From NCBI RefSeq assembly GCF_000717055.1, contig NZ_JNXI01000020.1, forward strand, positions 124,001 to 188,000: a DNA stretch of 64,000 bases. The letters are read 5' to 3'. Positions 9,768-43,520 of the stretch are shown one piece after another (positions within the stretch are counted from its first letter, which is position 1; every line of letters starts with the position of its first letter). The position numbers and the translations under genes were made by a program. Source of the DNA: Streptomyces iakyrus. GTDB lineage: Bacteria; Actinomycetota; Actinomycetes; Streptomycetales; Streptomycetaceae. A model generated the notes under the pieces. That model saw nothing but the letters and a program-made list of their open reading frames with translations, was not told where the DNA came from and did not search any database.

Positions 9768-10700
9768 CTACTGCACCCAGAGCTGGTCGAGGACTGCGTC
9801 ACACTGATTGCCCTCGTTGCACTCGAGCTCGATCGTGTTGGTGCCCTTGGTCAGGGTGACCGGAGCCCAAGAGGTCTGCCAGCCCTTCTCCCAGTCGCCC
9901 TTCGGTGAATTGATGAAGTTCTTCAGCCCCATGGGCTGGGTGTTCGCCTTGCCGTTCACCAGCAGCGTCGCATTGGCGTCGACTCCAGGAACGCTGTAGC
10001 GGGCGTAGAGCCGGTAGTCGCCGGCCTCCTCGATGCCGTTGACCGTCCAAGTCACCTTGGCTCCGACATGGTTGAAGCCCGTCACATAGACGCCGCCGTC
10101 GGCCTTCGCGCCCTTGAACTCGGACGCCGTCGTCATGCCGGGGCTGAGCCGCAGGGCCTTCGCGTCGGTCTTCGGGAGATCCTGCTTGGCCGCTCCGCCC
10201 TTGCTCGCCGACGGGCTCGGCTTCGACTCCTCGGACTGGGTCGGGGTCGTGCCCGGCTTGTCGGACGCGTCGTCCTTGTCCTTGTCGCCGCCCAGCATGG
10301 CCACGCCGATGCCGATGACGACCGCGGCGACCACCGCGATCGCGCCGATCAGCAGACCCTTGGTATTGGGGCCGCGGCCACCCCGGCCGCCGCCGCCCGC
10401 CGGGGTCGCGTGATGCGCGGTCTGCGCACCGCCCGGCAGCGTCTCCGGCGCCGCATAGTGCGCGTTCGGCTGGCTGTAAGAAGCCTGCTGCGGGACCTGG
10501 CCGTACGGCGCGGTCTGGGCGCTCTGCGGCTGCTGGCCGTACTGGCGCGTGCCGACCGCGCGCACCCGGTTGACCGAGTTCGGGTAGCCGTAGCCGCCGC
10601 CGGACGGCGGCTGGGCCCCGTTGGCCTGCCCGTCGGCGTAAAGATAGCCGAACGGGTCGTCGTCCTCGGGCGTGCTCGCGCCGTTGTTGCCGGGCGTCAT
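9768..10700 (-). CDS. Membrane-anchored protein with CBM6/35-like carbohydrate-binding domain
   Basis: 310 aa. The first ~115 residues are Gln/Gly/Tyr/Pro-rich and low complexity, then one TM helix (GLLIGAIAVVAAVVIGIGVAML), a Ser/Lys/Pro linker, and a C-terminal beta-sandwich ending with GTNTIELECNEGNQCDAVLDQLWVQ, the usual edge strand of CBM35-type domains. The likely topology is cytoplasmic N-terminus and exposed sugar-binding domain. There is no catalytic domain. Its ligand is unknown. Confidence 0.75.
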   Translation of the reverse strand: MTPGNNGASTPEDDDPFGYLYADGQANGAQPPSGGGYGYPNSVNRVRAVGTRQYGQQPQSAQTAPYGQVPQQASYSQPNAHYAAPETLPGGAQTAHHATPAGGGGRGGRGPNTKGLLIGAIAVVAAVVIGIGVAMLGGDKDKDDASDKPGTTPTQSEESKPSPSASKGGAAKQDLPKTDAKALRLSPGMTTASEFKGAKADGGVYVTGFNHVGAKVTWTVNGIEEAGDYRLYARYSVPGVDANATLLVNGKANTQPMGLKNFINSPKGDWEKGWQTSWAPVTLTKGTNTIELECNEGNQCDAVLDQLWVQ

Positions 10701-17661: not shown

Positions 17662-18339
17662 TCAGCCCTCCACCCGGATCCCCCACTGCGCGGCCAGCAC
17701 CGGCGCCAGGTCCAGCAGCTGCGCCGTGCTGATCACCGCCCCCGACAGGCGGTCCAGCCCGCGGCTGATCTCCAGGGAAGCGGCGCCGCGCAGGTCGACG
17801 TCCGTCAGGGTCGCCGCATGGAAGTCGGCGCCCTTCAGCGCGCAGTCCACGAACTCCACGCGCTCCAGGCGGGCGCCGCCGAAGTCCGGCTCGACCAGGA
17901 CGCAGCCCTCGAAGACGACGTCTCTGAGCCGGGCCGTGCGCAGGTTCAGATAGTCGATCTTGCCGCCGCGGACCAGCACCCGCTCCAGCACCGCCCCGTG
18001 CAGCTGCGGTCCGCCGAGCCGGGCATCGGTCAGCTCCACGTCGCGCAGGGTCGCCTCGGCGAGGTCGGTGCCGACGCCGCGGACGCCGGTGAAGACGGAG
18101 TCCAGGACGCGGGCGTGCCGCAGCCGGGTCTCGTCCAGCGCGCAGCCCGTCAACGCGCAGTCCATGAAACGGGCGCCCGAGCCGTCCTGCCCGGTGAAGC
18201 CGGCCTCCCGGAAATCCAGCCCGTCGTAGTCCCCGTCCGGCTCCAGCTCGCCGCCCCCGTACGGCTCCAGCACCGGCAGCCGCACCTCCGGTCGCCGCGC
18301 GCCCTTCACACCCGTACCGCCCGCCGCTCTCCTCGCCAT
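17662..18339 (-). CDS. Pentapeptide-repeat protein
   Basis: 225 aa from ATG 18339. From about residue 40 the sequence is a run of five-residue units with hydrophobic centres (LDFREAGFTG, ARFMDCALTG, ADFHAATLTD, VDLRGAASL), which fold as a right-handed quadrilateral beta helix. The end after LSGAVISTAQLLDLAPVLA is helical. Some family members mimic DNA and inhibit gyrase; this one cannot be placed functionally. Confidence 0.85.
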   Translation of the reverse strand: MARRAAGGTGVKGARRPEVRLPVLEPYGGGELEPDGDYDGLDFREAGFTGQDGSGARFMDCALTGCALDETRLRHARVLDSVFTGVRGVGTDLAEATLRDVELTDARLGGPQLHGAVLERVLVRGGKIDYLNLRTARLRDVVFEGCVLVEPDFGGARLERVEFVDCALKGADFHAATLTDVDLRGAASLEISRGLDRLSGAVISTAQLLDLAPVLAAQWGIRVEG

Positions 18340-18477
18340 GCGCCCATGCTGCACCCCACCACCGACAACCGGCGCTGACCTGCCCTGACCTGCTCGGACA
18401 CCGGCGATGTCACATTCCGGCGCCCTCGATCGGTCGTACTCCCAGAAGGCGGCCCCGACCCGAGGGAGATCCAAGTC

Positions 18478-19638
18478 ATGCACCGCATCACCGTCATCGG
18501 CGGCGGCTTCGCCGGACTGACCGCGGCCATCACCGCTGCCGAGGCTGGCGCCAGGGTCACCGTCCACGAGGCCCACCACACGCTCGGCGGCCGGGCCCGC
18601 ACCGCCGATGGCCCGTACCGCACCAACGAGGGCCCGCACGCCCTCTACAACGGCGGCCCGCACTGGGCCTGGCTCAGGCAGCGCGACCTCATCGGGCCGC
18701 TCGCCCCGCTGCCGCCCCTGGAAGCGGCCCGGCTCCGGCTCCGGCACCAGGGCGTGCTGCGCCGCACCCCGCCCTTCGCGATGCTGAAGCTGCTGCGCCG
18801 GACAGGCCGGCAGGCACCCGTCGACGCCGACTTCCTGACCTGGGCGACGGGCATCGCGGGCGAGGAGGGGGCCAGGGCCGCCGCCCACTACTCGGCGGTC
18901 GCCCTGTTCCACCACGATCCCGGATCGCTGTCGGCCGCGTTCGTGCAGGAGCGGCTGCGCCGCGCCACCAAGCTGCCGCCCGAGGCGCACTACCCGCGCG
19001 GCGGCTGGGCGAGCCTCATCGACCGGATGGCCGCCCACGCCTGGAACCTTGGCGTCCGGATGGAGACGCTGTCCCGCGTCGACACGCTCCCCACCGACAC
19101 GCCGGTCGTCGTCGCCACCTCCCTCGACGCCGCCCGCCGCCTGCTCGGCGACGACTCCCTGACCTGGCCGAGCGGCCGCACCGCCCTCGTCGACCTGGCC
19201 GTCCGCACCCGGCGCGGCGACGCCTTCGCGGTCTCCGACCTGGACGCACCCGGCTGGCTGGAACGGTTCACGGCCCAGGACCGCAGTCTCGCCCCGGCCG
19301 GCGAGCAGTTGATCCAGGGTCAGATCCCCATCGCCCCGCATGAGTCGAAGGCCGACGGCACAGCCCGCGCCGAGCAGTTGCTCGACCTGGGCTTCCCCGG
19401 CTGGCGCGAACGGCTCACCTGGCGGCGCGACTCGGTGGCGAACGGCCGTACGGGCGCGGTCGACCTCCCCGGCACCAGCTGGCGCGACCGGCCGGCCGTG
19501 GACCGGGGCGACGGGGTCTACCTCGCCGGTGACCAGGTCGCTGCCCCCGGTGTGCTGTCGGAGGTGTCCTTCAACAGCGCCCTGACGGCGGTCTCCCTGG
19601 CCCTCGGCCGGCACGAGCTTGACCTCAAGCAAGCTTGA
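18478..19638 (+). CDS. FAD-dependent oxidoreductase (amine-oxidase/phytoene-desaturase-like)
   Basis: 386 aa. The N-terminal Rossmann motif is ITVIGGGFAGLTAAITAAEAG followed by the E of VHEAHHTLGGRART. The C-terminus has the second FAD motif GDGVYLAGDQVAAPGVLSEVSFNSA. It resembles the NAD(P)-binding amine-oxidase-like group. The substrate is unknown. Its stop codon lies within the SoxR-like box of the next gene. Confidence 0.8.
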   Translation: MHRITVIGGGFAGLTAAITAAEAGARVTVHEAHHTLGGRARTADGPYRTNEGPHALYNGGPHWAWLRQRDLIGPLAPLPPLEAARLRLRHQGVLRRTPPFAMLKLLRRTGRQAPVDADFLTWATGIAGEEGARAAAHYSAVALFHHDPGSLSAAFVQERLRRATKLPPEAHYPRGGWASLIDRMAAHAWNLGVRMETLSRVDTLPTDTPVVVATSLDAARRLLGDDSLTWPSGRTALVDLAVRTRRGDAFAVSDLDAPGWLERFTAQDRSLAPAGEQLIQGQIPIAPHESKADGTARAEQLLDLGFPGWRERLTWRRDSVANGRTGAVDLPGTSWRDRPAVDRGDGVYLAGDQVAAPGVLSEVSFNSALTAVSLALGRHELDLKQA

Positions 19639-20712: not shown

Positions 20713-21639
20713 GTGCCGAGAGTGATCGACATTCCCCGGGAACTGGCGGCAGCACAGGAGAAGTTCAACGGAGAGGCGGGCCGCGCCTTCATCGCCGGAC
20801 TACCGGAGCAGTCGGCCCGCTTCCTCGACCACTGGGGCCTGAAGCCCGACGGCCCTCCGATGCACGGCGTTTCCGCCCTGGTCGTGCCGGTCGTCCGGAC
20901 CGCCGACGGCACCCCCGCGGTCCTCAAGCTCCAGATCCTCGACGAGGAGAGCGCGGGCGAACCGGTCGCGCTGCGCGCCTGGAACGGCGACGGAGCCGTC
21001 CGCCTCCTCGACCACGACGAGCCCACCGGCACGATGCTGCTGGAACGCCTCGACGAGACCCGCATGCTGTCCCACGTGCCGGACGTTCACGAGGCCGTGG
21101 TCACCATCGCCGAACTCCTGTCCCACCTCACGTCCTTCCCGGCCCCGCCCGGCATGCGCCGCCTCGGCGACATCGCCCGCGGCATGCTCGACCGGACCCC
21201 CTGGGCCCTGGCCCGCATCCCCGACCCGGAGGCGCGCGGCCTGATCGCTGACTGCGCGGCCGCCGTCCGCGAGGTCGTCGACCAACCGGGCGACCGCCTC
21301 CTCCACTGGGACCTCCACGACGAGAACGTCCTCGCCTCCGGCCGCGCCCCCTGGCTCGCGATCGACCCCAAGCCCCTCGCCGGCGACCCCGGCTTCGAAC
21401 TGTGGCCCGCCCTCGACAACCGCTACGACCCCGACGACATCCTCTGGCGCTTCGACGCCATGACCGACATCCTCACCCTGGACCGCCCCCGAGCCCACGC
21501 CTGGACCCTCGCCCGCCTCCTCCAGAACACCCTGTGGGACATCGAGGACGGCCGCCCCGTCGACGACGCCCAGCTGGAGATCGCCCGGCGGCTGCGCGAC
21601 CGGATGCAAGTCTCTGCCTTCACTCCCCGGAGCGAATGA
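20713..21639 (+). CDS. Aminoglycoside 6-phosphotransferase-like kinase
   Basis: 308 aa, APH(6)/hydroxyurea kinase group. The catalytic loop is LLHWDLHDENVLAS and the metal aspartate is in AIDPKPLAGDPGFELWP. These enzymes phosphorylate streptomycin-like cyclitols, but chromosomal copies in Streptomyces often have no known substrate. Start is GTG 20713 or 20722. The 3' end overlaps the convergent membrane gene by 20 bp, which marks the boundary with accessory DNA. Confidence 0.8.
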   Translation: MPRVIDIPRELAAAQEKFNGEAGRAFIAGLPEQSARFLDHWGLKPDGPPMHGVSALVVPVVRTADGTPAVLKLQILDEESAGEPVALRAWNGDGAVRLLDHDEPTGTMLLERLDETRMLSHVPDVHEAVVTIAELLSHLTSFPAPPGMRRLGDIARGMLDRTPWALARIPDPEARGLIADCAAAVREVVDQPGDRLLHWDLHDENVLASGRAPWLAIDPKPLAGDPGFELWPALDNRYDPDDILWRFDAMTDILTLDRPRAHAWTLARLLQNTLWDIEDGRPVDDAQLEIARRLRDRMQVSAFTPRSE

Positions 21640-23095
21640 GCAATGCACTCATTGACGTCTCGGAATAGGTTTCAACCGTTCCTACGCCGTACCTGTACCG
21701 TTCTCTCCGCCATTCCGCCTGCGCTCCTGCCGAGCCGAACAGGGCATCTTCATATGCCGCTATTGTCTTTCTCTTGAGATCGAGGGATGAAATGTAGTGA
21801 CTGTAAGTGGCCTCCGGACCCCAGAAAGCCGTCACATACCGCGGCCTGCGCGTCACGTTGATCAGGTTGTTATTGTGGTGAACGCGCCCGTGATAGACGA
21901 CGTACGGCCCGTAATCCCGGCACTCATTCAGAGGGCAGTAGAATTCCCCCTCATACTCCCCCCAGGAGAATCTGGAGATGGAGAATTCTTCATCAATCCT
22001 CCCTCGGTCTTTCCTCATGATGTCGATGGAAAGCGAGGCCTTCAACGTGTCGTACTTGCTTCGCCTGGGAATCCTGATTACCGTACTCTTGGCATATTGC
22101 TCTCCTTTTTCGAGCCAGGCTCCAGGGTAATAGAAGGGCCCTGAACCTACTGTTGCATCCTCGTCATTACTGGCATGCCGTTGAGCTTCGGCGGTATCGC
22201 CGCGATCCTCTGTAGCAGCTGCCCACTGATCCAACCCTTCACCGCTGGCGGAGTAGCTGACCGACGACCCCAGGACCGTGTAATCACTGTTGAGGATGTA
22301 TACAGGAATCCCCCCATCGTTCTTTGCATGCAACCTTAGCGGAACGTGAATATATTGAGGGTCTGGACTCTTTTGCGGTGTCCCAAATTCCACCTTGAGT
22401 GTGATATTGATGGGTGCGGACGTAGGTTGATACATGGTCGAGTAGGCCAGGCTTACCGCCGTAAGGAGTGCCGTTACGGCCACCCCAGCCGCAAACCTCG
22501 TCGGATGGGGCACTTCTTTCCACGGCTTTTCGCGAACAAGCAAGCAAAGCGCCCAGAGGGACCAAAAAGAGAGTGGAATAAATGCCAGCAGATAGGGCGT
22601 GTATTCCCTCTCTTCGAGCCACATGATCAAAAGCAGAATGCTGGACGCCAGAGTAACTAATGTGCCGACCAGGACGACTGTCCCCGACGGCCTGAACTCC
22701 CGCCTGCCCCAATAGTCATACACTGCAAGCACCGCCCCAACCAGCAATAAGCCGGCCAGGATGAAAATGGCTCCTACGATTCGCTGCGCAAAAGTGAGCG
22801 CCCGGAGAGCATCCGGCCAGCCGATACTCAGATGCAAGATCGCAGAGCCGAGCATTCCCCCTATCATCAGTGCGAGGATCGTGCGCCGTCTCCATGGGCA
22901 GTCGGGCCAGGTCTCCTTGTCACCTCCGCGCCAGTAGAACGATGTGTCATCCAATTCCGCATAGCCGAGGCGGTCGAGAATCTTCCGCAGGTCACGAAGT
23001 GACCAGGCGCTGCCGACCACCTCGCCGCCGATTGTGATCTTGCGTAGACCGCGGCCATCAGGCGGACCCACGGTCACCCATGGCTGCATACTCAT
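21620..23095 (-). CDS. Low-GC hypothetical membrane protein
   Basis: 491 aa from ATG 23095 (MSMQPWVTV). A short soluble N-terminus (about 75 residues, with LRDLRKILDRLGYAELDD) is followed by roughly five TM helices between residues 85 and 240 and then a ~250-residue extracytoplasmic or soluble C-terminal domain with no recognised motif. Base composition is visibly more AT-rich than the core genes. It lies between the APH-like gene and the left att copy, next to an integrase 3' remnant, so it is probably cargo of an older integrated element. I do not recognise the family. Confidence 0.7.
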   Translation of the reverse strand: MSMQPWVTVGPPDGRGLRKITIGGEVVGSAWSLRDLRKILDRLGYAELDDTSFYWRGGDKETWPDCPWRRRTILALMIGGMLGSAILHLSIGWPDALRALTFAQRIVGAIFILAGLLLVGAVLAVYDYWGRREFRPSGTVVLVGTLVTLASSILLLIMWLEEREYTPYLLAFIPLSFWSLWALCLLVREKPWKEVPHPTRFAAGVAVTALLTAVSLAYSTMYQPTSAPINITLKVEFGTPQKSPDPQYIHVPLRLHAKNDGGIPVYILNSDYTVLGSSVSYSASGEGLDQWAAATEDRGDTAEAQRHASNDEDATVGSGPFYYPGAWLEKGEQYAKSTVIRIPRRSKYDTLKASLSIDIMRKDRGRIDEEFSISRFSWGEYEGEFYCPLNECRDYGPYVVYHGRVHHNNNLINVTRRPRYVTAFWGPEATYSHYISSLDLKRKTIAAYEDALFGSAGAQAEWRRERYRYGVGTVETYSETSMSALLIRSGE

Positions 23096-23211
23096 AGGGC
23101 AAAGCTGAAACCTGGGTAAGCGATGCGCACGGGGGGCTACTCCGTTCAGGGTTCCGGCCCACAGCAGCGTGCCGAGCGACGCGCCCTTGATCAATCCTCA
23201 GACGCCCTGTA

Positions 23212-23270
23212 CCGCCGCCGTATCCGCTGACGACAAAACCCCAGGTCAGAGCACATCTGACCTGGGGTTT
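23212..23270 (+). pseudogene. Integrase 3'-tail remnant with its terminator
   Basis: CGCCGCCGTATCCGCTGACG followed by a hairpin (CCCCAGGTCAGA..TCTGACCTGGGG) closely matches 43382-43440, where it is the last codons of int (RIR stop) plus its terminator. Here no int gene is attached. It sits immediately left of the tRNA-Thr fragment, as expected if an earlier related element once occupied this site. Confidence 0.7.
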
Positions 23271-23319
23271 CACCAGAGCCCCCTGTCGGATTCGAACCGA
23301 CGACCTACGCATTACAAGT
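23271..23319. repeat. Left attachment site: 49-bp copy of the tRNA-Thr 3' part
   Basis: These 49 bases are identical to 43441-43489. They cover the tRNA 3' flank, acceptor strand, T arm and anticodon region but not the 5' half, so this is a truncated tRNA, not a gene. Together with the intact tRNA at the other end it brackets the element. Confidence 0.93.
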
Positions 23320-23562
23320 TGTCGGATCTTGGTCCAGATGTGTCCGGGGGCATCCACCAAACAGGTTCACCCCTGCTCGGAAAGGGGTGATGGAATCCGG
23401 CACACAACGATGGACGACGGCGGATCGGACGTGAGTGAGACTGCAAATGAGACCGGGCCTCGACCTTGTACCCGGCCTCCTTACCCTCCAGACTGGTCGC
23501 TGAAGGTTTGACTCTTACCAGTGCCGCGGGCAGCACCAACCCTGCGATCCTATCGCCACAGT

Positions 23563-24750
23563 TCACTTCCTAGCATCGCCTGAATCTCCATTGGTTCCGT
23601 TGTCGATTATGCTAATAAACAACGGATCACCCCTAAGGTCGTCCCAAACCTCATCCTCGCGAGCCATGCGGCGGTACTTTTCTGGACTCGCGGAAACGGC
23701 AGTTGCTAGCAACGTGAGCGCCTCACGCACCCTGCCCCTTCTTTTTTCGTTACAGGCGAGATTATAGATTGCCGGCGTATATGTGGGGTCTAGCGCAATC
23801 GCTTTGCGATAGAGCTTGTCCGCTCTGTCATAATCCCCCATGTACTTTCCGCGAAGCACTCCAGCGTAGGTCAATGGGACAGGATCCTCCGGCCGCATTT
23901 CTGCGGCCTTCAGGTAGGCGTCTTCCGCCTCCACATACTTACCTGCACGCTTAAGCTCATACGCAAGGATGCAGTATGCGTCCGCGTCTAGACGACCGCC
24001 TGCGCCTTCGAGAGTCTGGACTCTCGCCTTAAGTTCCGATACGGCGCGCCGATCGTCTTCCGATACAGGACGCCGATCTTCGTCCTTCGTCTCCTCATCG
24101 TCAACCTTGTCGCGCTCGGCTTTGCTACCGTGCGAGATGGACCTGATCGCGTCCTGCAGCTCAGCTTTCTCTTGACGCATGGATGCTTCAGCGGAGCTGA
24201 GCGCTTGAGCCATTCGAAGCCTCGTAAGCAAGTAGCCAATCAGAAATCCGCCGATGACGTTATAGAGCACAAGCCCAATCGCAAATATCTCACTACTTGC
24301 GACATCCCCCAAGGCGGGCTTAAGCCATTCACCCAATGACTCCATGCCGCTCGGTATCCTAATGAGCTGTATCAACCCGACGCCGACTAGGATCTTGGTG
24401 AGCCAATCAGATATCTGCTCCAGATTTGTATTTGAGCGGTAGACCGGCCACGGATGCTCAGCGTCAATTTTCCCTGCGGCTTGCATGATGATTTCGCGAC
24501 GCGAGATGGACTCAACATCTTCGAGGGTTCGCGGGAGCCCGAAAAGAAAACCCAGAAGCAGGCCCAAAGCGAAGGCTGAAGCGCCAGTAAGTACAGTCAC
24601 TCCCAAGACAGACCAAGCTTTGGTCCATGGGAACTGAAAGAGGTAAGCGATAACCGCTACGGAATAAATAGCGACCGCGGCGGCCGACCACATCTTGATC
24701 TCGCGGGCGGCATCGACATTCGCGGCGCTCACTCTACGTGATCGCTTCAT
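23563..24750 (-). CDS. Low-GC membrane protein with coiled coil and C-terminal TPR repeats
   Basis: 395 aa from ATG 24750 (MKRSRRVSAANVDAA); an in-frame ATG at 24777 is possible. There are about four TM helices between residues 20 and 200 (AVAIYSVAVIAYLF, FALGLLLGFLFGLP, ILVGVGLIQLI, LVLYNVIGGFLIGYLL). A charged coiled coil follows, then three TPR-like units (YVEAEDAYLKAAEMRPEDP, YDRADKLYRKAIALDPTYT, REALTLLATAVSASPE). It probably scaffolds other proteins at the membrane. No enzyme motif is visible. It is flanked by att and an int relic, so it was acquired with an element. Confidence 0.75.
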   Translation of the reverse strand: MKRSRRVSAANVDAAREIKMWSAAAVAIYSVAVIAYLFQFPWTKAWSVLGVTVLTGASAFALGLLLGFLFGLPRTLEDVESISRREIIMQAAGKIDAEHPWPVYRSNTNLEQISDWLTKILVGVGLIQLIRIPSGMESLGEWLKPALGDVASSEIFAIGLVLYNVIGGFLIGYLLTRLRMAQALSSAEASMRQEKAELQDAIRSISHGSKAERDKVDDEETKDEDRRPVSEDDRRAVSELKARVQTLEGAGGRLDADAYCILAYELKRAGKYVEAEDAYLKAAEMRPEDPVPLTYAGVLRGKYMGDYDRADKLYRKAIALDPTYTPAIYNLACNEKRRGRVREALTLLATAVSASPEKYRRMAREDEVWDDLRGDPLFISIIDNGTNGDSGDARK

Positions 24751-24944
24751 GATTCCATGGTTACTCCAGAACGCCATACATGCATCTGGGGCCCCCTCGT
24801 GGTGGCCCAGTGGATGGATGGACACGTACCTCACCACGCCGCGGATGAAGCTCGTCCTCGTTCCCTCGATGGCTACTGGTCCAGCCCGCAGCAACATCAT
24901 CCCGGGGGCCTCGAACGGAAACGCCTGAACGGATTTACAGGGCC

Positions 24945-25037
24945 GGCGAGGGGCGCGCCGCCCCGCCCCACGTGCTCAAGGTCCACCGCATACTGTCGCG
25001 CGCCGTGAACATCGCCTACCGCTGTCAGGCCCATTAG
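24945..25037 (+). pseudogene. Internal fragment of a tyrosine integrase
   Basis: The frame 24969-25037 reads HVLKVHRILSRAVNIAYR and then stops, matching HVVKVHRILSRALKIAHR of the intact integrase in 15 of 18 positions; the DNA matches too. Neither the N-terminal nor the catalytic part is present. It is a relic of another element. Confidence 0.75.
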
Positions 25038-25066
25038 GGGTTGTCTGATCTTGGTCGGGGGTGTCC
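25036..25066. repeat. Second element-left-end-like sequence
   Basis: TTGTCTGATCTTGGTC matches TTGTCGGATCTTGGTC, which directly follows the left att copy (23319-23334), and GTGTCC follows in both. The bases just before it (CATTAGGGG) resemble the att end (CATTACAAG). Confidence 0.5.
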
Positions 25067-25315
25067 ACCGCCGGAACTCAGTCACGTAATCGCTGTTCAG
25101 CAAGGGCGCCCGGCTCTCCCCAACGTCAGTGGACTCCGCTGGAGCCCGACCTCGTTGAGACCACAAGCGAGATGGAGTCTGCGGAAGCGTTTCCGCCTCA
25201 TCTGGGCCTTGAGCAGGGCAGGTTCCGTCGAACCCCTTGAACGTGTGACGAGATGCTGCATGATTGTGTGGTCGCACCATCACTTGGCGTAGCGCACAAC
25301 GAGGCGAGGAGAGTC

Positions 25316-26140
25316 TTGAACCAGCCTGCCGTGCCACGGTTCGCGCCTGAAGAGGTCGCTAAGCAGCTAGGCGCGGAGGCATCGTTCCTCGGCGCCGGCG
25401 CCTTCGGCGACACATGGAAGGTAGGCGGTGAGGCAGTCAAGATCATCTGTACCGATGACTACTCCATGGCTCGGCTGGAACGGGAAGTCGAGGGACTTCG
25501 ACGCGTCAGCTCACCGCACGTCGTCGCCTTCCGCGGCCCCATCACTGTCCAACTTGGCGGTAAAGCCAGGCCAGGGTTGCGGTTCGAGTACATCGCCGGT
25601 GGGGACCTTGAGGGGCGGATAGCTGATGGCAAGCTGTTGCCACCCGAGCATGCAGAGGAGTTCCTCAGGGGACTTCTAGTTGGAGTTCAGGCCCTACACA
25701 AGGCTGCCACTATCCACCGCGACATCAAGCCCGCGAATATCGCATTGCGTAACGGTAGGTGGTCTGACCCAGTCATTTTGGATCTTGGCCTTGCTAAGCA
25801 GATCGACGCGAGCACTATCACCATCTACCCCGGGCATATTGGAACGTTTCCCTACATGGCGCCCGAGCAACTCATCGGACAGCGAGCACGAAAAGCAGCC
25901 GATCTGTGGGCTATCGGGGTAACGGTAAGGCACGCCCTGACGGGAAATCACCCCTTCTATAAGATCGAAAACAAGTACACTGTCGACGAGGCGTACACGT
26001 GCCTGACTAAGGGGCCACAGCCGCTATCCAGCAACTGCCCAAAAAGCGTCTCGGCAATTCTTGATCGACTCACGTCGGTGGTGGAGCACGAGCGAGGAAG
26101 CGTTTCAAGTAATCTGATACGCCTGAGCCGCGATTATTAA
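25316..26140 (+). CDS. Soluble Ser/Thr protein kinase (cargo)
   Basis: 274 aa from the TTG at 25316, which has GAGGAG a few bases upstream; an ATG at 25253 in frame is an alternative. All kinase motifs are present: Gly loop LGAGAFGDTW, catalytic lysine AVKII (residue ~42), HRDIKPAN (~134-141), DLG in place of DFG (ILDLGLAKQ) and APEQ. There is no TM or PASTA sensor region, unlike housekeeping Pkn kinases; the C-terminus ends soon after the kinase domain. The next gene starts 13 nt later with its own GGGGGA site, so the pair is one operon. The partner is a possible substrate (inference). Confidence 0.88.
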   Translation: MNQPAVPRFAPEEVAKQLGAEASFLGAGAFGDTWKVGGEAVKIICTDDYSMARLEREVEGLRRVSSPHVVAFRGPITVQLGGKARPGLRFEYIAGGDLEGRIADGKLLPPEHAEEFLRGLLVGVQALHKAATIHRDIKPANIALRNGRWSDPVILDLGLAKQIDASTITIYPGHIGTFPYMAPEQLIGQRARKAADLWAIGVTVRHALTGNHPFYKIENKYTVDEAYTCLTKGPQPLSSNCPKSVSAILDRLTSVVEHERGSVSSNLIRLSRDY

Positions 26141-26153
26141 TTGGGGGATTGAG

Positions 26154-27575
26154 ATGCATCAGGACGAGCCCGATCCGATGCCTGAGGAGGACCTGGATTG
26201 GTCAACCGGCGTGGAGGATGAACTCGACTGGCCCGTGGTAGACGAGGAAAAGCTACAAAACGCGGCACTCAATGCCTACCTAGACGCAGAAGACGAATAT
26301 GTGCCCCTGCCCAGCGAGGATGGCTTCCTCATACTGAGTGGCGATAATGCTGGCAGCGTAGTCACCGCTCCGCCAGCGGGATCAGTGGCGAGTAGAAGCG
26401 GTAACGCGCCGCCCAGGATCGAACGCGATGAGGCGCTAGCGGGGTCGCGACCCATTTACCTCGTTCAGCGGGGAGGCAGGTATCACAGGTTCATACCTCG
26501 TGTTCTCGTCGGCCTTCACGCATCCTACGGAGACAGCTTGGCTCTGGGGGCAATTGCTAACCTCCCATCAGCCAATTCGCAAGCTCACCGTGATTTCTTC
26601 GCTCTTTCTCCAGTCTCAGCGCTTCGGATTGCAGACCCCCGCTGCTACCTCCTCGATACAGACATTCTGAGGTTACCAAAAGAACCGATCAAGGCTCGCG
26701 GATACAAGAACGCCCCGTACCTCGCGCACGCCGAAACATCTGGTTGGGTACAGCGCGTGCTCGACGCTCAAAGAGCTTCCGGCGCCAATCTCCTCCTGAC
26801 CCCAGGAAGGGCGCTCGACCCTGACGATCCTCAAAAATCTCTGGACAGAACTTACGAGCAAGGCGACGACGTCCTTTCTCATCTTGACCGCTGCGAACGC
26901 GTCGCTCTAAATCTCACGCTGCCAGCACGCTGGCTTTCGAGCCCTGCGCTCAGAAACCGCCTCCTGGACCAAATCATGGACCAGGATCAATTTGACACCC
27001 TGTACGTCCGCGTGCAGTGGGCTCAGGGTAAGGCGTTCATTCCCCCAGACGACGCCGAGCTACTTGCAGGAATCAAGAAGCTTGCAAACCTGTGCGCGGA
27101 TGAGGAGAGGTGTCTTCTCCTGCCGCAGACTGGTTTGACTGGCTGGTATTCCCTTGCCCACGGAGCTGCTGGGTTTGGACTTGGCGTCAGCGGAGCCGAT
27201 CAGGCGTTTGCCGAATACGTATTCCGCGCCGGTGCGAAGGGCGCGATTGAACGGTACTTCGAGAGGCAGCTTCTCCACACTCTCGATAGGAACACGCATA
27301 ACGTACTGGCCAGGACGCCTGGCTATACACGGTGCACATGCCCATACTGCCCTGCGCTCTTCGCAAACGAGCCATGGTCTCACGAACTTTCCGCTCTCCA
27401 CTACTTACACAGCATGGGGGAACTCACAGCTAAGGTGCACCGAGACTCGGCCCGCAATGGAAGGCACGCCGCTCTTAGAAGAATTGTTGCAGCCGCCCAG
27501 AGATTCTCGACTGGTCTGCCCCTCAGTGCGGAACAGTCTCCAAAGCATTTGGACGCCTGGGGTCAGGCCCTGTAG
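26154..27575 (+). CDS. TIM-barrel-like zinc protein resembling tRNA-guanine transglycosylases (cargo, unknown function)
   Basis: 473 aa. The first ~100 residues are acidic and low complexity, a typical kinase-substrate-like tail. The middle alternates strands and helices (FDTLYVRVQW, RCLLLPQTGLTGWYSLAH, GFGLGVSGADQAF). Near the end is C394-x-C396-x2-C399 followed by H429 in an amphipathic helix (SALHYLHSMGELTAKVH), the same layout as the zinc site of TGT and DpdA-type base-exchange enzymes. I see no certain catalytic Asp, so the TGT link is tentative. Two TTA codons (26673, 27405) imply bldA-dependent translation. Its 3' end overlaps the convergent nuclease-like gene by 53 bp. Confidence 0.6.
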   Translation: MHQDEPDPMPEEDLDWSTGVEDELDWPVVDEEKLQNAALNAYLDAEDEYVPLPSEDGFLILSGDNAGSVVTAPPAGSVASRSGNAPPRIERDEALAGSRPIYLVQRGGRYHRFIPRVLVGLHASYGDSLALGAIANLPSANSQAHRDFFALSPVSALRIADPRCYLLDTDILRLPKEPIKARGYKNAPYLAHAETSGWVQRVLDAQRASGANLLLTPGRALDPDDPQKSLDRTYEQGDDVLSHLDRCERVALNLTLPARWLSSPALRNRLLDQIMDQDQFDTLYVRVQWAQGKAFIPPDDAELLAGIKKLANLCADEERCLLLPQTGLTGWYSLAHGAAGFGLGVSGADQAFAEYVFRAGAKGAIERYFERQLLHTLDRNTHNVLARTPGYTRCTCPYCPALFANEPWSHELSALHYLHSMGELTAKVHRDSARNGRHAALRRIVAAAQRFSTGLPLSAEQSPKHLDAWGQAL

Positions 27576-28311
27576 AAGTGGTTAGGTCACTTCCAAACAC
27601 GTGATGGATGGGGCCGCTCACCTTGCCACGCATGCATAGCTCAGCGGCTCTCTCCACGAGCAGCTCCCTGTAAACACTCCCCCCCTGGCCTCTATCCGGC
27701 TTCGGAGGAACCAGCGGCTTGAGCCCGGTCTTCTGGTCTAGAGATGCAAGCCCAATTCCGGCGATCGAGAACCAGTCACGATGTGCGAGAGCCGGAGCGG
27801 ACAACTCAGCGTCCAGCACTAGCCAGGCCTCATCGGCCGCTAGGCCGTGGCGAAGGGTTTGGTGATACCCTCCTCGCCAATCGCGAATTTTTGCTTCGAT
27901 GGTGCAGATTCGAGTAGCCAGGCTACGGAATCGGCTCACTGCCCTCCACTGCCCCCTCGAACGCTTCTCTACGTGTCCCGAGCGAGCAAGCCGGGGGAGG
28001 ACGGCAGAGGAAATATGCCCAGGGCTCAAATGGGTCTGCTTGGCGATCTGAGAGGGAGACAGGGTCTCACCCAGTCTCTTTTGCAGGGAAAATAGGACAC
28101 TCATGTCAGCAAGGTCCAGGATCAAACCTTGTGATCGCAGACGCCGGCGACGGACCGCCTCTTCATCGAAACATACGAGGACAACGTCAGGGACACCCGA
28201 GGTTGACTGAACCTCGAAAAACACCCTGCTTCTGGCGCCAATCAACTTGGATGCATGCTTAACAATCGGTTCGAGCATGTCAGCTTCTCTCACAAATTGC
28301 GCTTTTGGCAT
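27523..28311 (-). CDS. PD-(D/E)XK nuclease-like protein with an internal winged helix (cargo)
   Basis: 262 aa. Two halves of a nuclease core, E33..PD42 (FFEVQSTSGVPDVVLV) and E139-A-K141 (TIEAKIRDWRGGYHQTLRHGL) followed by ADEAWLVLD, are separated by a MarR-like winged helix at about 83-122 (LSPSQIAKQTHLSPGHISSAVLPRLARSGHVEK). The arrangement suggests a DNA-binding endonuclease or a nuclease-fold regulator. ATG 28311 has GAGGGAG 8 nt upstream. It is convergent with and overlaps the TGT-like gene, which makes co-inheritance as a unit likely. The catalytic reading is by motif only. Confidence 0.6.
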   Translation of the reverse strand: MPKAQFVREADMLEPIVKHASKLIGARSRVFFEVQSTSGVPDVVLVCFDEEAVRRRRLRSQGLILDLADMSVLFSLQKRLGETLSPSQIAKQTHLSPGHISSAVLPRLARSGHVEKRSRGQWRAVSRFRSLATRICTIEAKIRDWRGGYHQTLRHGLAADEAWLVLDAELSAPALAHRDWFSIAGIGLASLDQKTGLKPLVPPKPDRGQGGSVYRELLVERAAELCMRGKVSGPIHHVFGSDLTTSTGPDPRRPNALETVPH

Positions 28312-28508
28312 GAGCGCGGCTCCCTCGACTCGAACCTCGGAACATACACGAGCAATAGAAGTCTAGCGGACATTCTGGCGTCCTCGATGACGGAGCGACT
28401 AAATCGATGTCGTTGCATCTGCCTTGAGCGTCGACCTGCAAATTGCACGTCCGATTTTTCGACCTACCATCCGAGAGATCACCGACATGGCTCCTTCTCA
28501 GTCGCCAG

Positions 28509-28534
28509 TTGACAGACTGGTCTGTCTCTAGGAT
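28509..28534 (+). promoter_or_regulatory. Promoter-like elements with a 7-bp dyad operator
   Basis: GACAGAC-TG-GTCTGTC (28511-28526) is a perfect dyad. It overlaps TTGACA (28509-28514) and is followed by TAGGAT (28529-28534), with a short 14-nt spacing. It lies in the 439-bp gap between the nuclease-like gene and the GntR gene; the rest of the gap shows nothing else I can identify. Confidence 0.45.
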
Positions 28535-28750
28535 CGCCTCCTTCTTTACAGTCGCCCTATCCAGCTCCAAAGCACTCCGCCCAGCGGAAGCGCCAGGCCG
28601 GTTCTTCGCTCGACAAACGACCGACGGCTAGAGCCAGTGCCTGGCCCTTGATCCACTACTCAGGCTGGATGGCGACGTGACGCACTCTGCAAGGATTGCT
28701 CCTCATGGGAGTCTTGTGGGTGACGACGGGCGCACGGAGAGGGAGAGCGA

Positions 28751-29212
28751 GTGTCGCAGCAGGCCAACCCTCGGGGGACCTTCCTGAAGATTGCCGACTC
28801 GGTGAAGCAGCAGATCGAGGCCGACCCTGACATGACGGAGCTTCCGTCTTTGGCTGAAGTGATGCACGCCTACCAGGTCTCGCGAGGAGTCGCCCTCCGC
28901 GCGTTCAGCGTGCTGCGGCTGGAAGGTATGGCCGAACCATCGCCAGGTGAGCGGTGGCGCGTTGTGCGCGCAGGTGCGCGAGTCGACCGGCGACCGCTCG
29001 ATCAGCGGATCGCTGACATCATCACGGCTGAGGGGCTCAAGGTGGGGGAAGCGTTCCCGAGCGCTTCCGTGCTCGCCGAGCGGTTCGGCGTATCACGTCC
29101 GACAGTGGCCAAAGCACTGGAGAAGTTGGAAACCGCCGGCGTGCTGGCGGGGGGCGGACAGGGCAAGGTGCGGACCGTCCGCACCTTGCCGACGCGAGAG
29201 GAGAGTTCGTAG
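28751..29212 (+). CDS. GntR-type regulator with two winged helices (KorSA-like)
   Basis: 153 aa. The C-terminal half is a clear GntR helix-turn-helix (IIT..LKVGEAFPSASVLAERFGVSRPTVAKALEKLETAGVLAGGG). The N-terminal half repeats the pattern in weaker form (IADSVKQQIEADP..LPSLAEVMHAYQVSRGVALRAFSVLRLEGM). There is no effector-binding domain. Such proteins repress transfer functions in AICEs (KorSA of pSAM2). GTG start with GAGAGGGAGA upstream. The HD gene starts 1 nt after its stop. Confidence 0.82.
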   Translation: MSQQANPRGTFLKIADSVKQQIEADPDMTELPSLAEVMHAYQVSRGVALRAFSVLRLEGMAEPSPGERWRVVRAGARVDRRPLDQRIADIITAEGLKVGEAFPSASVLAERFGVSRPTVAKALEKLETAGVLAGGGQGKVRTVRTLPTREESS

Positions 29213-41988: not shown

Positions 41989-42004
41989 CCTCATGGAGGA
42001 GCAC

Positions 42005-43402
42005 ATGAGCCCCCGCAAGCCCAACATGGAATCGACTATCTACTTCGGTGCGGACGGCTGGTGGCACGGACGCGTCACGATGGGCGTGAAGAACGACGGC
42101 AGCCCCGACCGCCGGCACCGCCGCGCCAAGACCAAGGCGGAGGTTCGCCGCAAGGTCCGGGAGCTGGAGCGACTGCGCGACCAGGGCCGCGCGACCACCG
42201 CGGGGCGAAAGCCCACCGTCGCGCGGTGGATGGAGACCTACCTCACCGACATCGCGAGCCTGAAGCTCAAGCCACGCTCGCTCGATGACTACTGGTCGAA
42301 GACCCGGAACGACATCATCCCTGGCGTCGGCCAGCACCGCATCGACAAGTTGCAGCCCGAGCACCTGGAGCGGATGTACCGGGCCATGCTCGACGCCGGC
42401 CATGCTCCCTCGCACGTCGTGAAGGTGCACCGCATCCTGTCCCGGGCCCTGAAGATCGCCCACCGGCGTCGCATCATCGGCGAGAACGTGGCCACGCTCG
42501 TGGACCCGCCCAGCATCGATGAGATTGAGGCCAACCCCTTCACCAAGGAAGAGGCCAAGGCCTTCCTGGAGGCCGCGTCGAAGCGGCCCACGTTCATGCG
42601 GTGGATTGTCGGCGTCGGCATGGGGTTCCGGCAAGGCGAGACGCTCGGCCTGCGCTGGTCGTACGTTGACCTGGAGGCGGAGCTGTTCCGCCCCGAGTGG
42701 CAGTTGCAGCGCCTCACGTGGCGGCACGGATGCGAGGACACGCACGCCTGCGGGGCACGCCTCCACCGCTTCGAGCCGTGCCCTGCCGGATGCGCCCGGC
42801 ACAAGAGCTACAAGCGCGGCTGCCCGAAGCCGTGCCCCAAGACCTGCACGAGGCACGCGAGCGCCTGCCCCCAGCGAAAAGAGGGCGGGCTCGTCTTCAC
42901 CCGCCCGAAGACCAAGAAGAGCCGGAACGCCGTCCCGATCCCGCCTGTGTTCATCCCGTTCCTGCACGAGCACAAGGCCGGGCAAGAGGAGCTGCGGGCC
43001 GCCGCCGGCGAGCTGTGGCAGGAGCACGATGTCGTGTTCTCCCGGCCGGACGGACGCCCGCTCGACCCGCGCGCCGACTACGAGGAATTTAAGGAGCTGC
43101 TCAAGGAGGCCGGGATCGATGACCGCCGCCTCTACGACGGAAGCCGCCATACCGCCGGCACCATCCTCAACGAGCTGGGCGTGGACATGCCCACGATCAT
43201 GGAGATCCTCCGCCACACCCAGATCAGCCAGACCCGGCGATACGTGAAGGGCCGGTCCCACCTGTCCAAGGACGCCATGCGACGCATGGGCGAGTTTTTC
43301 GTGCCCGCGCCCTCGACCCCGGATCCGGGCCCCACTGAGACCAGAACTGAGACCGCCGACACCCGCGCGGCCCGCGCCCGGCGCCGACGCCGCATCCGCT
43401 GA
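42005..43402 (+). CDS. int: Tyrosine integrase of the AICE
   Basis: 465 aa from ATG 42005, with GGAGG 5 nt upstream (ATG 41993 is in frame but lies before that site). It has an N-terminal AP2-like arm-binding part, a core-binding domain (HLERMYRAMLDAGHAPSHVVKVHRILSRALK), and a catalytic domain with R209 in FRQGETLGLRW, SRHTAGTILNELG, LRHTQ and the Tyr at 413 in TRRYVKG. The HxxR histidine is Asp (YDGSRH), a variant I have seen in other actinobacterial integrases. A ten-Cys insert lies between the first Arg and the Lys region. It is directed at the tRNA-Thr 3' end 45 bp downstream. Confidence 0.94.
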   Translation: MSPRKPNMESTIYFGADGWWHGRVTMGVKNDGSPDRRHRRAKTKAEVRRKVRELERLRDQGRATTAGRKPTVARWMETYLTDIASLKLKPRSLDDYWSKTRNDIIPGVGQHRIDKLQPEHLERMYRAMLDAGHAPSHVVKVHRILSRALKIAHRRRIIGENVATLVDPPSIDEIEANPFTKEEAKAFLEAASKRPTFMRWIVGVGMGFRQGETLGLRWSYVDLEAELFRPEWQLQRLTWRHGCEDTHACGARLHRFEPCPAGCARHKSYKRGCPKPCPKTCTRHASACPQRKEGGLVFTRPKTKKSRNAVPIPPVFIPFLHEHKAGQEELRAAAGELWQEHDVVFSRPDGRPLDPRADYEEFKELLKEAGIDDRRLYDGSRHTAGTILNELGVDMPTIMEILRHTQISQTRRYVKGRSHLSKDAMRRMGEFFVPAPSTPDPGPTETRTETADTRAARARRRRRIR

Positions 43403-43407
43403 CGACG

Positions 43408-43440
43408 AAACCCCAGGTCAGAGACGTCCGACCTGGGGTT
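43408..43440 (+). terminator. int terminator
   Basis: AACCCCAGGTC..GACCTGGGGTT forms a hairpin just after the int stop. A near-identical one is at 23235-23270 beside the left att copy. Confidence 0.75.
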
Positions 43441-43489
43441 CACCAGAGCCCCCTGTCGGATTCGAACCGACGACCTACGCATTACAAGT
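43441..43489. repeat. Right attachment site, inside the intact tRNA-Thr
   Basis: The 49-bp core is identical to 23271-23319; here it continues into the tRNA 5' half, so integration regenerates a complete tRNA. Confidence 0.93.
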
Positions 43490-43520
43490 GCGTTGCTCTG
43501 GCCAGCTGAGCTAAGGAGGC
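43447..43520 (-). tRNA. tRNA-Thr (anticodon TGT)
   Basis: On the minus strand GCCTCCT (43520-43514) pairs with AGGGGGC (43454-43448) as acceptor stem. The D arm is TAGCTCAGCTGGCCAGAGCA. The anticodon stem-loop is ACGCA-CTTGTAA-TGCGT with anticodon TGT. The T arm is GTCGG-TTCGAAT-CCGAC. The discriminator is T and CCA is not encoded. It is the integration target of the AICE. Confidence 0.95.

Follow-up and report, generated by a model that had tools for sequence, protein, structure and literature searches.

The 64-kb window analysed here, the whole 64,000-nucleotide stretch of contig NZ_JNXI01000020.1 of Streptomyces iakyrus, carries three adjacent genes that encode a Ser/Thr protein kinase, a zinc protein with the predicted fold of tRNA-guanine transglycosylase (TGT), and a PD-(D/E)XK-like protein with an embedded winged helix. 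An earlier note, made from the DNA letters, had described this trio as low-GC cargo of a mobile element and a candidate defence system. The features of the locus are as follows (aa, amino acids; nt, nucleotides).

25316..26140, plus strand: soluble Ser/Thr protein kinase of 274 aa, with one kinase domain and a TTG start
26154..27575, plus strand: predicted TGT-fold zinc protein, 473 aa, with an acidic N-terminal tail, a (beta/alpha)8 barrel and a C-terminal zinc site (C394, C396, C399, H416)
27523..28311, minus strand: PD-(D/E)XK-like protein, 262 aa, with an inserted winged helix (about residues 66-125) and invariant E33, D42, E139, K141 and Q151
27523..27575, no strand: tail-to-tail coding overlap of the zinc-protein and nuclease-like genes, 53 nt by the coordinates of the open reading frames (ORFs)

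The trio is as the earlier note had it: reading of the ORFs gives the same coordinates, the same spacing of 13 nt between the kinase and zinc-protein genes, and the same 53-nt overlap. The low guanine-plus-cytosine (GC) content of the three genes is also borne out; the kilobases that hold them have GC fractions of 0.576-0.598, compared with 0.636-0.765 beyond the island at 22001-29000. The TTG start of the kinase at 25316 agrees with relatives, while the longest ORF would begin at 25253.

The trio is a conserved, co-inherited unit. In what is here called class 1, with the zinc protein as the middle component, 24 loci were compared: a pattern scan of 84,980 species genomes supplied 17, and the others are the window, two plasmids and four further genomes (G773 and G581 share sequence with L005 and L015 and were counted together with them). 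All three genes occur in the same order in 22 of them, including L011, where the nuclease gene is cut by the contig end, and L015, where the start of the zinc-protein gene is altered. In 20 of these 22 loci there is an overlap between the convergent genes, of 4 to 101 nt and of exactly 44 nt in seven; L016 and L020 have gaps. Chance adjacency was rejected on this synteny and on the same layout in a second class of the cassette, and co-occurrence of the kinase and the zinc protein in other genomes, proposed as a check when the trio was first described, is widespread. The genes are under purifying selection: ratios of nonsynonymous to synonymous substitution rates (dN/dS) are 0.04-0.15 in 12 gene comparisons from four locus pairs, with dS saturated in one pair. 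Mirror-tree correlations over 16 loci (r of 0.93, 0.92 and 0.84, with 0 of 2000 shuffles as high) partly reflect shared strain ancestry and are not taken as proof. Hosts of class 1 include Streptomyces, Streptacidiphilus, Sphaerisporangium, Planotetraspora, Nocardia, Rhodococcus, Arthrobacter, Microbacterium and Kineococcus. The distribution is patchy, with class-1 trios in 3 of 394 genomes of the taxonomic class and 5 of 392 genomes of the genus, the window's own genome being counted in both.

The kinase is a bare domain. A Pfam search matches PF00069 (Pkinase) to residues 24-264 of the 274 (E 4.4e-33), and the usual catalytic motifs (glycine loop, Lys, HRDIKPxN, DLG and (A/S)PE) are conserved in 16 aligned class-1 kinases; its description as a soluble kinase with catalytic motifs holds. 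Kinases occur in several described defence systems. The similarity of the kinase domain to Mad6 of MADS (5.4e-37) and to PD-T4-6 (3.6e-36) is that expected between Ser/Thr kinases, and the NCBIfam models MAD6 (87.1 of 460 bits) and PglW (56 of 990 bits) stay far under their cut-offs. The zinc protein and the nuclease-like protein match none of the partner families of MADS, PD-T4-6 or Pgl/BREX PglW.

Structure comparison of predicted models gives the zinc protein a TGT fold, a triosephosphate isomerase (TIM) barrel with a C-terminal zinc subdomain, in line with the TGT-like layout and barrel-like middle proposed from the sequence. Profiles do not reach as far. No match to the TGT family PF01702 or to the DpdA family PF23859 was found at E<=10 in Pfam, a library that does detect PF23859 in locus L003, and there was no sequence match in the PDB. 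The hhalign link to TGT covers the zinc site alone (P 0.04), and other profile runs were similar, with strand 4 weakly added. A housekeeping TGT is rejected at the family level for lack of a PF01702 match; no profile places the protein in a housekeeping family, and the fold is nonetheless that of a housekeeping enzyme. TGTs, the non-catalytic eukaryotic subunit QTRT2 among them, are the closest known family. Compared with them this protein has no PF01702 match, profile similarity confined to the zinc site and, faintly, to strand 4, and no acid at the Asp280 position as mapped, and its gene is linked to those of a kinase and a nuclease-like protein.

Residue counts were made on 122 class-1 sequences, 115 of 120 listed proteins (those of length 430-499) and seven from the loci; alignment A1 holds 45 of the 120, and 179 relatives were found in total. 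The zinc site had been given as CxCxxC-x29-H. The His at that spacing, H429, is present in only 8 of the 122, and the actual ligand is H416 (C-x16-H), found in all 122 and matched by profile alignment to the zinc-site His of TGT. D161, where strand 3 ends, is likewise present in 122 of 122 and may correspond to the catalytic Asp102 of TGT, on strand order only. The region equivalent to that of the TGT nucleophile Asp280 (positions 337-348), located by strand order and without residue-level three-dimensional alignment, holds one acid in total among the 122, compared with Asp in 15 of 15 aligned TGTs (those of 30 TGT loci with the exact motif searched for). The nucleophile thus seems to have been lost in the class-1 family, and the earlier description as a nucleic-acid-modifying-like enzyme is doubtful because this position is not acidic.

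The acidic tail recognized in the 473-aa protein is a family feature in class 1: the first 45 residues average 32% D/E and 3% K/R in 115 sequences. In L015, from S. fulvorobeus (about 9982-10248), the zinc-protein ORF as called begins 267 nt past the kinase and translated similarity starts from residue 3; its acidic-tail region seems to be out of frame or altered. P0079 (596 aa) was considered as a fusion protein and rejected, since it looks like a frame-shifted tail.

The third protein has, on its predicted structure, a PD-(D/E)XK-like fold with an embedded winged helix. The split motif read from the sequence (E33, PD42, ExK139-141) stands at those positions, and structure comparison puts both the motifs and the winged helix within a nuclease-like fold, as had been suggested. 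Five residues (E33, D42, E139, K141 and Q151) do not vary across the 31 class-1 sequences aligned, and three class-2 proteins retain the E–PD–ExK–Q signature; alignment A2 is without P0121-P0123 and loci L007, L008 and L011. The nuclease core has no sequence-level match in the PDB. The closest known counterparts, the type IIS restriction endonuclease PaqCI, a PD-(D/E)XK enzyme, and structure 3dnx, presumably of that family, differ from the third protein in that here a winged helix is inserted between E–PD and ExK. Two distant relatives of the nuclease family, L077:5528-6211 and L078:7141-7812, lack ExK and stand in other gene settings, one of them adjoining a DUF4326 gene; with weak nuclease matches and no ExK they were left out as cassette members.

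The winged helix is the portion of the third protein with the most structural matches, which raises a distinctly unlikely alternative: the protein may mainly regulate transcription or transfer in the element or host and take its input from the kinase, its nuclease-like domain being structural. Two relatives are annotated as MarR or BadM/Rrf2 regulators in their source records, and GntR and NUDIX genes are repeatedly found close by, with 7 and 6 of the 135 neighbour proteins tallied (kinase models make up most of the 25 families listed, of 127). The window and the Streptomyces loci L001, L003, L005 and L015 also have further element genes in common. However, the five invariant residues, kept in class 2, are those of catalytic PD-(D/E)XK enzymes, and no shared regulon is evident because relatives of the window's GntR neighbour occur in only 3 of the 17 pattern-scan loci.

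A second class of the cassette is new in this analysis. A profile of the nuclease run against the 394 genomes of the taxonomic class gave ten matches: three in class-1 genomes, two that score about 2e-16 and have no zinc protein beside them, and five that are weak. Three class-2 loci, each with a related kinase and nuclease and a zinc-less middle protein, were read, and the layout is the same in all three.

L075:6603-9385: class-2 locus
L076:8652-11725: class-2 locus
L081:6168-8892: class-2 locus

In L075 and L076 a short kinase is followed by a 383-aa middle protein whose gene overlaps that of the kinase by 4 nt, and the convergent nuclease gene shares 18 nt with the middle gene. The same trio is present on a Dietzia plasmid. 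Against class-1 profiles the class-2 kinases score 2e-19 to 4e-26 and the nucleases 2e-18 to 3e-19 (E-values in a nine-sequence set). The middle protein belongs to a separate family of which 65 members were found, none with a Pfam domain, and it lacks the zinc site. D65, D225 and D244 are invariant in 28 sequences (alignment A4, with 27 of the 65 relatives and a locus sequence). It has 0 matches in PADLOC, and the best PDB matches of A4, repeat proteins named DHT03, were discarded as unrelated. The class-1 and class-2 middle proteins align over 235 colinear columns, which is not significant (P 0.04, and 0.21-0.25 with larger profiles); gene position suggests their homology and does not prove it. 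Since the kinase and nuclease match those of class 1 and the middle protein differs, the middle component is exchangeable while the other two are constant. L075 and L076 come from different actinomycete families, and their middle protein, nuclease and kinase are 93, 88 and 94% identical; this identity suggests recent transfer. A middle-protein search of the 394 genomes returned these two loci only.

That no described system has this trio, as the earlier note had it, agrees with PADLOC, Pfam, NCBIfam and the literature searched, which left preprints and most subscription papers outside its scope. Every fold in the trio is already known; the combination of genes is absent from these libraries and this literature. 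Beyond the kinase domain, PADLOC returned nothing for the zinc protein and a single AbiEi match for the third protein (E 0.038, with E up to 10 allowed). TGT homologues serve in Dpd and have been proposed in a BREX-related system (Nucleic Acids Res. 2026, PMC12839542). The seven components listed there for the latter are PglZ, DUF6079, STAND-NTPase, DUF4007, HerA/FtsK, GNAT and TGT, a set without a kinase that has only the TGT fold in common with the trio. Dpd resembles the trio in that a TGT-fold protein and a nuclease function are united in one proposed defence unit (PMC12839542); it differs in that the trio has a kinase, no DpdA-family match and no DpdB/DpdC-type partner. Among the literature searched, these two are the nearest printed relatives, and neither has the gene set of the trio.

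The likeness to Dpd allows another explanation, in which DNA (or tRNA) receives a modified base from the TGT-fold protein and DNA that lacks it is cut by the nuclease. The TGT fold and zinc site, the TGT homologues of the printed systems, and the invariant D244, which in the class-2 middle protein lies close to the putative last barrel strand, all favour it. Nine cassette genomes, seven of class 1 and two of class 2, were scanned for the deazaguanine pathway. Seven of them, which also counts in its favour, have a QueC-family match over the Pfam cut-off, as would be needed for preQ0 supply; the match covers the full length in two genomes but is partial and weak in the other five, and the last two genomes have none. 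Canonical TGT is absent from eight of the nine; the window's own genome has no PF01702 TGT. Streptomycetes are without queuosine in tRNA, according to PMC9262613. With TGT in one genome and full-length QueC in two, a 7-deazaguanine role is not supported by all genomes, although uptake from outside may be a source. Restriction-modification of this kind is quite improbable, given also that neither PF23859 nor PF01702 matches, that class 1 lacks the acid at the nucleophile position, and that the conserved unit has no dpdB/dpdC-type gene.

Among distant actinomycetes, class-1 trios are carried by integrative elements, by plasmids and by chromosomes. One plasmid carrier is linear and comes from Kineococcus, another is conjugative and comes from Arthrobacter, where the trio stands between a coupling-protein gene and a relaxase gene, and the class-2 carrier is the mobilizable Dietzia plasmid. 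A phage-borne cassette was rejected: neither middle protein has a match in phage records, nor in IMG/VR, where the search was pattern-based and distant copies may escape it. Defence genes lie near some of the loci. For example, in Arthrobacter gallicola (L009:12297-17853) Wadjet JetA starts 294 nt past the trio and is followed by JetC. The PADLOC candidate PDC-S39 is near the trio in L002, an HNH/SAVED-like gene in L010, an adenine-methylase-like gene on the Dietzia plasmid, and PDC-S73 about 6.6 kb off in L060. In the streptomycete locus L003 a separate DpdA-family gene (17922-18839; PF23859, E 9.2e-69) lies about 5.8 kb from the trio. This neighbourhood is suggestive only.

Carriage by integrative elements and plasmids would also fit an addiction module that maintains the element, with the winged helix-turn-helix (wHTH) nuclease as toxin, the kinase and TGT-fold protein as its control, and loss of the element punished. 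The effector gene on the opposite strand, with its tail-to-tail overlap, is in keeping with this, and a toxin that binds DNA could be masked by the acidic tail. However, three genes and about 3 kb would be large for such modules, and no known antitoxin family was matched at cut-off; the only related matches are those of the third protein itself to AbiEi-type wHTH families, and they are weak (E 0.08 and, in PADLOC, the 0.038 given above). Addiction is an unlikely explanation.

The element that carries the trio in the window is bounded by a direct repeat, and the trio lies between its two copies.

23269..23319, no strand: att-like 51-bp direct repeat at the trio-proximal element end, an exact copy of 43439-43489, which lies over the tRNA-Thr gene
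43439..43489, no strand: att-like 51-bp direct repeat at the other element end, overlapping tRNA-Thr (43446-43520)
41993..43402, plus strand: tyrosine integrase of the element (PF00589, E 1.2e-15), adjoining tRNA-Thr

Because the repeat recurs at 23269-23319, the gene at 21620-23194 is outside the element and the TPR gene at 23563-24900 is inside. The latter, on the minus strand, encodes a protein with hydrophobic segments and is unexplained cargo; it has no relative in the 17 loci of the pattern scan. The earlier note had called the element an actinomycete integrative and conjugative element (AICE). The integrase, the tRNA repeats and the element genes that recur in the four Streptomyces loci named above support this label, and the conjugative part is where it falls short: there is no FtsK_SpoIIIE match, the sign of an FtsK/SpoIIIE-type transfer gene, within the window, and the presumed transfer and replication ORFs (four of the ten ORFs scanned) have no Pfam match at 1e-5. 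An AICE is for these reasons likely and not confirmed.

The earlier interpretation is partly supported. Its structural suggestions hold and none of the three outcomes that it named as refuting came about, while the evidence for defence is circumstantial: the mobility of the trio, its patchy distribution, its nuclease-like protein and the defence neighbours of some loci. The trio may be a mobile three-gene conflict cassette of Actinomycetes, probably anti-phage or anti-plasmid, a reading to which we give a probability of roughly 0.5; at about even odds, defence is the most economical explanation. Several observations weigh against it. Locus L013 has a zinc protein and no recognisable kinase (the contig ends within its nuclease gene), and L017 retains only a 66-residue remnant. 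The acidic tail is not general, because it is not seen in class 2 and looks altered in L015. The loss of the TGT nucleophile depends on strand order, QueC-family matches occur in seven of nine cassette genomes, though only two are full length, and Foldseek alone gave no match at E<=1e-3 for the nuclease-like protein. Neighbour proteins scanned singly were often without a PADLOC match (5 of 10 and 9 of 10 in two sets), and the proximity of defence genes was assessed without matched control loci.

In a defence cassette, we infer, the barrel would sense, phosphorylation would control and the predicted nuclease would cut. The TGT-fold protein would no longer carry out canonical base exchange, and its zinc-plus-barrel scaffold may instead bind a nucleic acid or nucleotide that arises during invasion. 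Phosphorylation by the kinase would set the state of the TGT-fold protein or of the nuclease, and the winged-helix nuclease would be the effector that cuts DNA. More speculatively, the acidic N-terminal tail of class 1 might restrain a DNA-binding nuclease. A tentative extension, with odds clearly short of even, is that the cassette forms a new immune or element-conflict family. It would combine a kinase, a TGT-like barrel and a convergent wHTH-PD-(D/E)XK nuclease, with exchangeable middle proteins (zinc-bearing and without the TGT nucleophile in class 1, zinc-less in class 2). The fold, ancestrally one for base exchange, would in this family have turned into a phospho-controlled sensor of nucleic acid or nucleotide that licenses the nuclease.

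If the cassette is a defence system, it would join a TGT-fold protein to a stand-alone kinase and to a nuclease of PD-(D/E)XK-like type, which no system in the libraries and literature searched does, and it would reuse the fold of queuosine insertion without the usual nucleophile. The two classes represent a natural swap of the middle component, so that the division of labour among the three proteins becomes testable. Whatever the function, about 240 mostly unnamed proteins (179 of class 1 and 65 of class 2) gain partners and a testable role, and those of class 1 gain a predicted fold as well.

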